In this document: positions 15,028-18,959 of the stretch, one piece after another
Layout: the number at the start of each line of letters is the position of its first letter
Numbering within the stretch: the stretch's first letter is position 1
Source: Aurantiochytrium sp. KH105
Lineage: Eukaryota > Sar > Bigyra > Thraustochytrida > Thraustochytriidae
Reading direction: 5' to 3'
Assembly (NCBI GenBank): GCA_003116975.1
Contig: BGKB01000052.1
Location: forward strand, 310,001 to 374,000
Length of the DNA: 64,000 nt
The notes under the pieces: model-generated
Seen by the model: the letters and a program-made list of their open reading frames with translations, nothing else
Database searches by the model: none
What the model was told of the DNA's origin: nothing
Translations under genes and position numbers: made by a program

Positions 15028-15896
15028 ATTGCTCGTTTTGCACGCCATCTCGTCCCGAGACAATATCTGTAACCCCTGTTCCCTGTTCAAACAAGCCCTT
15101 TGTAGTTCCCCCCCCCCCTCTTCATCCTATGAATCTGAATCTCTCTCTCTTTTTTCCCTATGTTTGGGCCTAGGCCTATCCTTCTCCTTGCACCGCGCTG
15201 CACGCACGAAAGAGATAAGGCGATCCATCGATCATCATGCGCAGCAGAGTTGACTGTGATTTCCAATGACGCCAGCACAAAGACAAGTTTTTTTGGGAAT
15301 TCAGGCCGACAAAAAATTAACAAGCAGAAACGATTGAAAGAATGACGAGATCGCGAGCAAGGAGGCTTGATCTTCACCTTGTGGTGCAGTCGACAATGAA
15401 TCAAGGTTCCTCGCACAACTTCAAGTGTGCGGTTCCTCGCTCAACTTCAAGAGCGTCCATGTATTTCCGGGTAACACAAGAATTGCTCTCCTTCGCAAGC
15501 TTGCAACAAATGCAATTGCGCGTCTCTTTTTGATGCGTTATGTTGCGTTGTGTTGTGTTGTGATTGTTGTTCATTTTGTTTTATTTTCTCAGCTCTGCTC
15601 TCACATCAGCCACTGTGGACTCAACGAACAAAAGATACGAGAGTGTGGCAGTCAGCAGCGAGCGTGCAAGCACTAAATACATGCGCTAGCCGCCACCTGC
15701 CTGCCTTCCTGCCTTCCCGCCTGCCGCGAGCACGCAAGCGCGAGCGCACGCAAGCGCGCTCCTCGGTCCTGTTTCCCCCCTTCCCGCTCACCCTGCGCGC
15801 ACGCCCGCCCGCCCGTTTTCCCCGTTGGCGCATCCGAAGCGCCGCGACGGCCGAGCAGCGAACCGAGGGAAAAAGAAGGGTACGAAGCACGCAAGC
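15028..15896. other. spacer between GFAT and TBCC-CLC genes
   Basis: Contains a polyC/CT stretch near 15105-15160, the GFAT 3' end and the leader of the next gene. A ~25-bp tandem duplication lies at 15404-15456. No gene is recognised. Confidence 0.5.
15404..15456. repeat. ~25-bp direct tandem duplication
   Basis: The block GGTTCCTCGC(A/T)CAACTTCAAG occurs twice in tandem with a single internal difference. Confidence 0.75.
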
Positions 15897-17330
15897 ATGG
15901 GCACGGTGACCACGCCAGACGGCAAGGAGTTTAGCGACCCGCGCGAATACAGGCGGTACCTGTTCGAGCACTATTACAGCTTTCGCAACCGGAGCGATGA
16001 GACGCTCACCAAGGTCCCCGGCGAGGTGAACGGCGAGGAGTTCCATCTCGATGGACTCACCGACTGTACGGTGACCATCCTCGATGTGACCAATCGCGTC
16101 GTCGTGTCAGACCTCACCAATTGCCACGTCTTTCTCGGCCCCTCCAAAGAGTCCGTCATGCTTCGCAAGTGCAAGGACTGCACCTTTACCGTGGCCTGCA
16201 AGGATCTTCGTGTGAATTCCTGTAGCGAGTGCACCTTGCGCGCGTTTACGCCAATGCCTGTGCAGCTCGACGACTCCCACCACATCAAGGTTGGCACTTT
16301 TAATGGCGCCTACTCGGGTCTCACCTCGCACTTTCAGGCTGTCGGACTCGACGCCTCCCAGGGCGCCGCCGTCAAGGTCAAGGATTTTAGCGAGCGTGAC
16401 AAGGAGCTGCCCCAGCCGCACTTTCAGCAGCTTTCCGCATCAGATGAAGAGGCCCTCGGCCCGTGGGAGGTCCAGCTCGAAAACGCGCAGGGCCCTCCGG
16501 AAAACCCGCTCAAGCCAACGTGCGACCCGGCGCCCCCTCCCCCGTGCCCGTTTCCCATCCCGGATCCTCACGCCACCTTTGAGGGCCCAGATGCTAGCAA
16601 TGCTGCTGCCTCTGTTGACTCTTCTGTCGGCGATGGCAGTGGCACCGCAGCTCCGTCAGAGGCGCAAGAATCGTCCCAGTTCACGCCGGAAACCTTTGAA
16701 GACGACCCGTTCGGTTCGTCTGATCGTGTCGAGAATGCCGAACAGCCAGCGAACGCTGGCGAAGCCCCCGTCGATGACTTCTTCGCGCAGGAAGACCCGC
16801 AGCAAATCCAGCAGCCAGAGGAGCAAGCACAGTATCAAGATTTTGGTGCCCAGCCCGATGCATCGCAGATCCCCGCCGAGGCTCCCTACGCCCCCATGGA
16901 GACAGCCGCATCCACGACCCAATCATCCGAGGCCGCTCCTGCGCCATCCTCGTCAGACTTCATGGCGGACTCTGACGAAACGGACGCTCGCGAAGCCTGG
17001 GAGGCTCAGTTTGCGGAGCGTATCAAGGCCAAGGATCAGGAGGCCGCAGAACTCCAAGCTCAAATGCAAGAAAAGGCCGATGAGGAGCTCGATGAGCTTT
17101 ACGCTGAGCGCACCAACAAGAATGCCATTCGGTACACTTCAAACCGTGAAGCTGAGGGCGCTTTGCTCCAAGAAGCCGAAGACAGCGCCGTTTCAGACGA
17201 AGATGCGCCCAACTGGGCTCGCATTGTCTCGCTCATTGACATTAATGCAAAGGGCAAGTCGGACGAGCTGAACCTTGACCGCATGAAGAACCTCATTATC
17301 CAGCTCAAGAACACTACAAAGCAACAATAA
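15897..17330 (+). CDS. XRP2/TBCC-type GAP domain fused to a clathrin light chain-like C-terminus
   Basis: 477 residues from the first in-frame ATG; the upstream open frame has none. Residues ~15-200 are a TBCC/C-CAP beta-helix most like XRP2, the GTPase-activating protein for ARL3: NCHVFLGPSKESVMLRKCKDC, then ACKDLRVNSC. The arginine-finger position is kept (Arg105 in DLRV), while the two preceding glutamines typical of XRP2 and TBCC are Lys-Asp. A 200-residue acidic Pro/Gln/Ser linker follows. Residues ~360-477 have the layout of a clathrin light chain: AWEAQFAERIKAKD, DELDELYAERT, NREAEG, and the end NWARIVSLIDIN...LDRMKNLIIQLK, matching the heavy-chain-binding helix and the C-terminal W/LK motif. 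Domain calls rest on motif resemblance, strong for TBCC and good for the clathrin part. Coupling small-GTPase regulation to coats is inference. The stop overlaps AATAAA. Convergent with PIG-F. Confidence 0.82.
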   Translation: MGTVTTPDGKEFSDPREYRRYLFEHYYSFRNRSDETLTKVPGEVNGEEFHLDGLTDCTVTILDVTNRVVVSDLTNCHVFLGPSKESVMLRKCKDCTFTVACKDLRVNSCSECTLRAFTPMPVQLDDSHHIKVGTFNGAYSGLTSHFQAVGLDASQGAAVKVKDFSERDKELPQPHFQQLSASDEEALGPWEVQLENAQGPPENPLKPTCDPAPPPPCPFPIPDPHATFEGPDASNAAASVDSSVGDGSGTAAPSEAQESSQFTPETFEDDPFGSSDRVENAEQPANAGEAPVDDFFAQEDPQQIQQPEEQAQYQDFGAQPDASQIPAEAPYAPMETAASTTQSSEAAPAPSSSDFMADSDETDAREAWEAQFAERIKAKDQEAAELQAQMQEKADEELDELYAERTNKNAIRYTSNREAEGALLQEAEDSAVSDEDAPNWARIVSLIDINAKGKSDELNLDRMKNLIIQLKNTTKQQ

Positions 17331-18225: not shown

Positions 18226-18959
18226 CTTCTCGTTATAGGCTCTCTGCTCTTGCTCTCGATCGTTGCTTTTTATACCACAGAGGTCCTACAATGAACGTCG
18301 AGGCCGCCGGGCATCGTGGTCGCTCGATCTATCAATCAATCGCCCTACGTAAATCAACATCCGGCAGCGCGGGAAGATGCAGACACGAGATGACCGGCCG
18401 CCGTAGCCAAGTGCGACGCTCGCGCGGTCGGCAAAGCATGGCAGGTCTTGGCTGGGCACGATGCGCCAGGTCGAGCTATTAGGCTTACCGGAGTGACCGA
18501 GAGCGAAGTCGAGGCAAGATGAGAGCGAAGTCAAGAGCGAAGTCGAGAGCGAAGTCGAGAGCGAGGTGAGAGCGAAGTCGAGAGCGAAGTCGAGAGCAAG
18601 GTGAGAGCGAAGTCGAGAGCGAGGTGAGAAAGCGAAGTCGAGAGCGAAGTCGAGAGCGAAGTCGAGAGCGAGGTGAGAAAGCGAAGTCGAGAGCAAGATG
18701 AGAGCGAAGTCGAGAGCAAGGTGAGAGCAAGGTGAGAGCGCACTCTCAAATCGTGACACGCGCGAACACCACGAACTTCGCGAAGAAGCGAGCATCATGG
18801 GCCGATGCAGACGAGCAAGCAGACCCGCAACCTCAGACCGAAAGCGAACGCCAGCCCCAGCCAAGTACAAGCCAACCCAAGCCCACCCAAGCCCAAGCCC
18901 AAGCCCAAGCCCAAGCCCACGCCCAAGCCCGCCGACGACGGACTTCAAGGGCAAGCAAG
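18226..18959. promoter_or_regulatory. divergent region between PIG-F and the helicase-like gene
   Basis: Holds the upstream regions of both genes and the 12-bp minisatellite. Downstream of the minisatellite, a Pro/Gln/Ala-rich stretch stays in the helicase frame but has no ATG. It contains a (CAAGCC)n hexamer run at ~18871-18928. Confidence 0.55.
18498..18740. repeat. 12-bp minisatellite, about 20 units
   Basis: Tandem units of GAGAGCGAAGTC with GAGGTGA and GCAAGG variants, arranged in higher-order groups. Purine-rich on the plus strand. Because 12 is a multiple of 3, all six frames stay largely open, producing spurious RLRS/DFAL peptides on the minus strand. Confidence 0.9.

Follow-up and report, generated by a model that had tools for sequence, protein, structure and literature searches.

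One open reading frame of Aurantiochytrium sp. KH105 joins a TBCC domain of XRP2 type to a clathrin light chain

Can a clathrin light chain carry a regulator of ARL/ARF-type GTPases within the same protein? The question is raised by a gene in the window, by which we mean the whole stretch of 64,000 nucleotides that was analysed. Positions 15897 to 17330 of its forward strand had been predicted to form a single uninterrupted frame, in which a TBCC domain like that of XRP2 precedes a tail with the layout of a clathrin light chain. Translation bears out the frame, which encodes 477 residues. Scored as a full-length protein, the product matches Pfam TBCC (PF07986; residues 47–164, positions 16035–16388) with 92.8 bits against a curated cut-off of 24.8, and Clathrin_lg_ch (PF01086; residues 289–474, positions 16761–17318) with 61.4 bits against a curated cut-off of 22. 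Both matches hold when the parts are searched apart: residues 1–190 reach 95.4 bits for TBCC and residues 191–477 reach 62.7 bits for Clathrin_lg_ch. Besides these two domains, a Pfam scan of the protein to an E-value of 1 returned nothing.

The N-terminal half is closer to XRP2 (2bx6, E-value 8e-23, 84.8 bits, residues 21–170) than to human TBCC (2yuh, 2.2e-14, 56.9 bits) in phmmer searches. By alignment, the XRP2-like module covers residues 1–208 (positions 15897–16520). The stretch PDGKxFxDxxEYRRYxxExYYSF at its N-terminus is common to the fusion and two paralogues, and its end near residue 210 is about where the homologous module of these paralogues stops. Residues 209–350 (positions 16521–16946) form a linker rich in Pro, Ala, Gln and Ser, with 27 acidic residues and one basic residue, in which the sequences DDPF (269–272) and DDFF (293–296) occur. 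We chose the limits of the linker by hand, and the Pfam light chain match begins within it. As judged by the profiles, each part belongs to a known domain family, and what is new about the protein is their combination.

Is it truly one gene? Two adjacent genes may have been read as one, through the gene model or the assembly, or transcripts may start or end between the domains. The low complexity of the linker would suit such an artefact. The genome that we searched comprises 76 Mb in 367 contigs, and most places found by the family searches occur as near-identical pairs, presumably two haplotypes or homoeologues. The fusion, too, is found twice, in the window (contig C52) and on a separate contig (C62). 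The two copies are 98% identical and keep the same frame: over its 1434 bases there are 31 base differences and no indel. Eight of the codon differences are replacements and 22 are silent. The aligned flanking sequence, which may extend into the next gene, has six indel events in 1064 bases. At that rate 8.1 indels are expected in the whole frame, and their absence has a chance of about 0.0003. For the linker taken alone the lack of indels is a weak argument (2.4 expected, chance about 0.09). Hence the case for an intact fusion frame rests on the whole-frame figure together with dN/dS, which is 0.100 between the copies. By part, dN/dS is 0.059 for residues 1–208, 0.169 for the linker and 0.064 for residues 351–477, all from small counts (2, 5 and 1 replacements); residues 1–185 have none.

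The positions of the methionines also speak against two genes. In the window copy they are residues 1, 88, 120, 334, 356, 390 and 463. Because 120 is followed by none until 334, and the C62 copy has Thr in place of Met334, a separately started full-length light chain is unlikely; no internal start would yield a light chain with the acidic N-terminal part. No stop interrupts the frame, and a scan for the four donor hexamers GTAAGT, GTGAGT, GTATGT and GTACGT found none in it. Of the six frames, only the one that is read has a positive codon score across the linker, the rest being negative. One or two antisense frames are positive as well in the parts that encode TBCC and the light chain, so the score is frame-specific in the linker only. 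With this evidence we regard an artefact as highly improbable. The profile matches, the second copy that keeps the frame and the comparison with paralogues agree that an XRP2-type TBCC domain and a clathrin light chain stand in one protein, as the original prediction proposed. By all sequence evidence available, the architecture is real and unusual.

The surroundings of the gene differ between the two copies. At window positions 15531–15598 the C62 copy has about 570 extra bases (L027, about 1226–1859, with one N). They sit between an upstream gene with SIS and GATase domains and the fusion, likely in the promoter region. Repeated GAGAGCGAAGTC-like units occupy the intergenic positions 18510–18740 and are partly missing from the other copy.

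How good a light chain is the C-terminal half? A search of the 76 Mb with PF01086 scored five places. Four of them, which make up two gene pairs, exceed the 22-bit cut-off and the fifth stays below it (18.9 bits). So few places in a genome of this size mean that coiled-coil composition seldom gives such matches, and a chance match is therefore unlikely. One pair is the fusion (64.4 and 63.1 bits) and the other is a stand-alone light chain on C46 and C86 (78.4 and 74.7 bits). After removal of a 100-base intron the C86 copy encodes 237 residues that begin MAEEDPFGF, and this protein reaches 73.9 bits for Clathrin_lg_ch. The C46 copy has the first exon and the intron, and its single gap lies within the intron. 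The earlier proposal would have been weakened by a separate light chain that matched the profile much better. A separate chain exists and does score better (73.9 against 61.4–62.7 bits), but not overwhelmingly so, and the fusion remains well above the cut-off. A phmmer comparison with clathrin light chain A (1xi4) even reverses the order, with 18.4 bits for the fusion part and 10.6 for the stand-alone chain. This match of the C-terminal half is itself weak (E-value 0.16 with the whole protein, 0.023 with residues 351–477). The two light chains of the genome are 35% identical over 110 aligned positions.

The residues that touch the heavy chain can be compared directly. Trp105 and Trp127 of mammalian CLCb are reported as heavy-chain contacts, and mutation of heavy chain Lys1326 is reported to rescue a Trp105 mutant (PMC8712872). 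Alignment to 6wcj_B places the Trp105 equivalent at Trp368 of the fusion (positions 16998–17000), and the stand-alone chain keeps it as well. Trp127 is replaced by Met in both chains (Met390 in the fusion); this change, like the weak phmmer match above, counts against the explanation that we favour below. The C-terminal segment, from Trp440 to the end (positions 17214–17327), aligns with the part of the light chain that is described as touching the trimerisation domain, and mammalian light chains are described as binding the heavy chain knee through their N-terminal EED (PMC8712872). On the side of the heavy chain, PF00637 finds one canonical gene pair with a frame of 1702 residues and seven repeats per copy, and one further pair (C33/C47) above the cut-off with a single repeat of 40 bits. 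The light-chain-binding part of the canonical heavy chain aligns with its mammalian counterpart, Lys1326 included. The Clathrin-link model PF09268 has no match in the genome, perhaps because it is only 24 positions long.

The fusion thus shares with CLCa, CLCb and the stand-alone chain a Pfam match above the cut-off, the heavy-chain helix with the Trp105 equivalent and the terminal W...RM..LI..LK. It differs from them in the TBCC module and the part of the linker that precede the light chain match, which starts only at residue 289. Because a stand-alone light chain exists and scores better, the fusion is an extra and probably specialised light chain. It is neither the sole nor, probably, the main one.

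We now turn to the head of the protein. Arg105 (positions 16209–16211) aligns with the arginine finger (RP2 Arg118) of RP2, the human retinitis pigmentosa 2 protein or XRP2, which is a GAP for ARL3. The adjacent pair Gln115-Gln116 is replaced by Lys102-Asp103 (positions 16200–16205). On both points the original prediction was right. A further change can be added to it: Asp125 (positions 16269–16271) stands in place of RP2 Glu138. Neither Gln116 nor Glu138 of RP2 is therefore found in the fusion. Gln116 is reported to contact the alpha-phosphate of GTP (PMC4539340), and Glu138 is described as catalytic, a Gly mutant abolishing the acceleration of hydrolysis (PMC8271468). Ser99 of RP2 is kept as Ser86. 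Phe101 and Arg120, which are also named in PMC4539340, are replaced by Met88 and Asn107, which counts against the explanation that we favour below.

Are these changes ordinary for the genome? A search with PF07986 returned 18 places, of which 12 pass the Pfam cut-off and form six TBCC gene pairs; the other six fall below. The sixth pair, L025 (C56, with a twin on C27), passes the cut-off, and the arginine finger is gone from the C56 copy. The four finger-bearing pairs other than the fusion (C33/C47, C11/C18, C85/C83 and C136/C120) keep both Gln116 and Glu138 in all eight copies. Among finger-bearing pairs, the two changes to Asp are thus confined to the fusion. The position of Gln115 is Lys or Arg in the same eight copies, and hence Asp103, but not Lys102, is unusual here. 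The Phe101 position is Met in C136/C120 too, and Arg120 is retained in the Tudor-bearing pairs only, among the finger-bearing pairs compared. In C136/C120 (L011, L012) the TBCC domain stands at the head of a long frame; the C136 copy also gives weak EF-hand matches that do not reach the Pfam cut-offs.

The closest relatives of the head in the genome are two proteins with Tudor-like repeats. A small FastTree phylogeny clusters the fusion with the Tudor-bearing TBCC proteins of C33/C47 and C11/C18 (support 0.946), and of the three branches of this clade the fusion has the longest. The tree, small as it is, does not join human XRP2 specifically to the clade, which again counts against our preferred explanation. 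Like the fusion, these proteins have the XRP2-like module, with the PDGKxF stretch at its N-terminus and the NP(L/V) stretch at its C-terminus. Unlike the fusion, they have Tudor-like repeats in place of the light chain, and they keep Gln116 and Glu138. For the C11 protein, the top Tudor-like match (26.4 bits) falls just short of the Pfam cut-off of 27.2. One Tudor-TBCC frame has about 3000 residues with many repeats. The giant Tudor-TBCC frame begins at L013:6197, and an open frame of 1074 residues (L013:2781-6002), putatively adaptin-like, lies just upstream on the same strand.

With human XRP2 the fusion shares the sequence of the TBCC beta-helix and the arginine finger. It differs in the two Asp residues at Gln116 and Glu138, in the attached light chain and in that Pfam finds no NDK domain in it. 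The N-terminus differs as well. It reads MGTVTTP, with Gly2 present, but Pro7 presumably breaks the PROSITE N-myristoylation pattern (compared with the sequence by eye), and on account of Pro7 we rejected N-myristoylation. Cys3, which we take XRP2 to have, is also absent. Mammalian XRP2 is reported to have an N-terminal myristoylation signal, needed for targeting, and a degenerate NDK domain (PMC3879569). The RP2-like proteins of a trypanosome and a nematode are likewise described there as having neither. The trypanosome protein (TOF-LisH plus TBCC) offers a parallel, for in it, too, TBCC is joined to an unusual localisation module in one lineage. It differs from the fusion in that its reported route to the basal body is TOF-LisH (PMC3879569), and not clathrin.

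The genes of the pathway in which such a head could act are, by their sequence matches, present. An ARL3 with the GGQ motif (best PDB match 4goj, E-value 9.6e-74), an ARL2 (best PDB match 9m1i, 8.8e-89) and two GMP_PDE_delta gene pairs were found. There is also an Arl13-like GTPase, whose top two matches are 4m9q, named only as an ARF-like GTPase, and 5di3_B, named as ARL13B. This protein carries Tudor-like repeats, which have been reported on Arl13 of Aurantiochytrium limacinum too (PMC8358228). The ARL3 circuit has Tudor-like repeats more than once: the Arl13-like GTPase (L055:1477-3018, C15/C196) and both Tudor-TBCC proteins (L003, L005) carry them. The PfaA model TIGR02813 gave strong but partial matches that stay under the curated cut-off; such PUFA-synthase-like sequences, taken with the repeats of the Arl13-like protein, make a thraustochytrid the likely source of the genome.

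What, then, would the fusion do? Two key positions of the active site have changed while the domain is conserved between the copies, a pattern that suggests a role in binding, in place of catalysis or in addition to it. With two GTP-contact or catalytic positions altered, GAP activity is doubtful in spite of the arginine. The explanation that we propose, and hold to be about evenly balanced against everything else, is a second, specialised light chain that acts on the coat as a reader of an ARL3-type GTPase and whose GAP activity is weak or altered. Its light chain helix and its C-terminal segment would bind the heavy chain as those of an ordinary light chain do. The tail would thereby place the XRP2-type domain on the coat, where, on its flexible acidic linker, it may stand out from the surface. 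There it would bind the GTP form of an ARL3- or ARL2-type GTPase at clathrin-coated carriers, as a reader with weak or altered GAP activity and not as a strong GAP. Since the fusion seems to be without a myristoylation signal, clathrin may be its anchor and would substitute for the N-terminal lipid anchor of mammalian XRP2. These steps differ in strength. Incorporation into triskelia is likely. GTPase binding we would expect by a slight margin, and, given binding, a weak or altered GAP is somewhat better favoured. A role at carriers or at the base of the flagellum is tentative.

The main rival to a reader is a head with full GAP activity towards ARL3 or some other GTPase of the ARF family. Coat assembly would then trigger hydrolysis and the release of cargo or coat. 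The retained Arg105 and Ser86, the low dN/dS of the domain and the ARL3 with its GGQ motif would fit such an enzyme. The loss of Gln116, the reported alpha-phosphate contact (PMC4539340), and of Glu138, whose Gly mutant is reported to abolish acceleration (PMC8271468), does not, and the two Tudor-bearing paralogues, which keep both residues, look like better GAP candidates. We consider a fully active GAP unlikely.

Less probable still is a function free of GTPases, in which the head binds tubulin or scaffolds the basal body and the tail recruits clathrin there. In its favour, tubulin is the target of TBCC itself, and basal bodies are a reported location of RP2 proteins (PMC3879569). The head is closer to XRP2 than to TBCC by the bit scores given above, and the genome has a separate TBCC with a TBCC_N domain (C85, with a near-identical copy on C83), both of which tell against this function. 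The light chain half might instead have drifted to another partner, so that it merely targets the TBCC domain, outside triskelia. This idea, which draws on the second light chain of the genome, the lower Pfam score of the fusion and the Met at the Trp127 position, we find very unlikely: the Trp105 equivalent and the C-terminal segment are retained, the ordinary chain has the identical Trp127 change and dN/dS is 0.064 in this part. Incorporation of a GTPase reader into the coat stays our preferred reading.

We looked for relatives and for earlier descriptions of this architecture. A viral collection (viral_contigs) gave four pattern-matching stretches and a prokaryotic one (genome_contigs) gave 22; none was confirmed as a relative of the fusion, and both collections are silent on its spread among protists. 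In the open-access literature, a scope that leaves aside most subscription journals, we found no description of a TBCC-light chain architecture, and nothing that combines thraustochytrids with 'clathrin light chain'. Mammalian Arl3-GTP reportedly binds GGA1, a clathrin adaptor, in a model of clathrin carriers that travel from the Golgi to the cilium (PMC4237283). We found no other published link between ARL3 sorting and clathrin, and this one, as reported, runs through an adaptor. In olfactory neurons, organelles that bear RP2 are reported to be devoid of clathrin (PMC9653401), which counts against our preferred reading.

A tie between an ARL/ARF regulator and clathrin triskelia through the fusion is plausible on this evidence. 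One protein that joins ARL3 sorting and clathrin would be natural evidence that the two pathways meet at the coat, and a simple object for tests. Its head, an XRP2 paralogue with changed GTP-contact residues in a constrained domain, is a candidate for a GAP turned reader. For the clathrin family, the fusion suggests that light chains can be a chassis for accessory domains. The chance is somewhat less than even that the clathrin coat of this organism has a built-in GTPase module, so that the state of an ARL3-type GTPase would be an input to, or an output of, the assembly of carriers, for example in flagellar traffic. If true, this module would represent a novel kind of coat subunit, in which a clathrin tail takes the place of the lipid anchor of XRP2.
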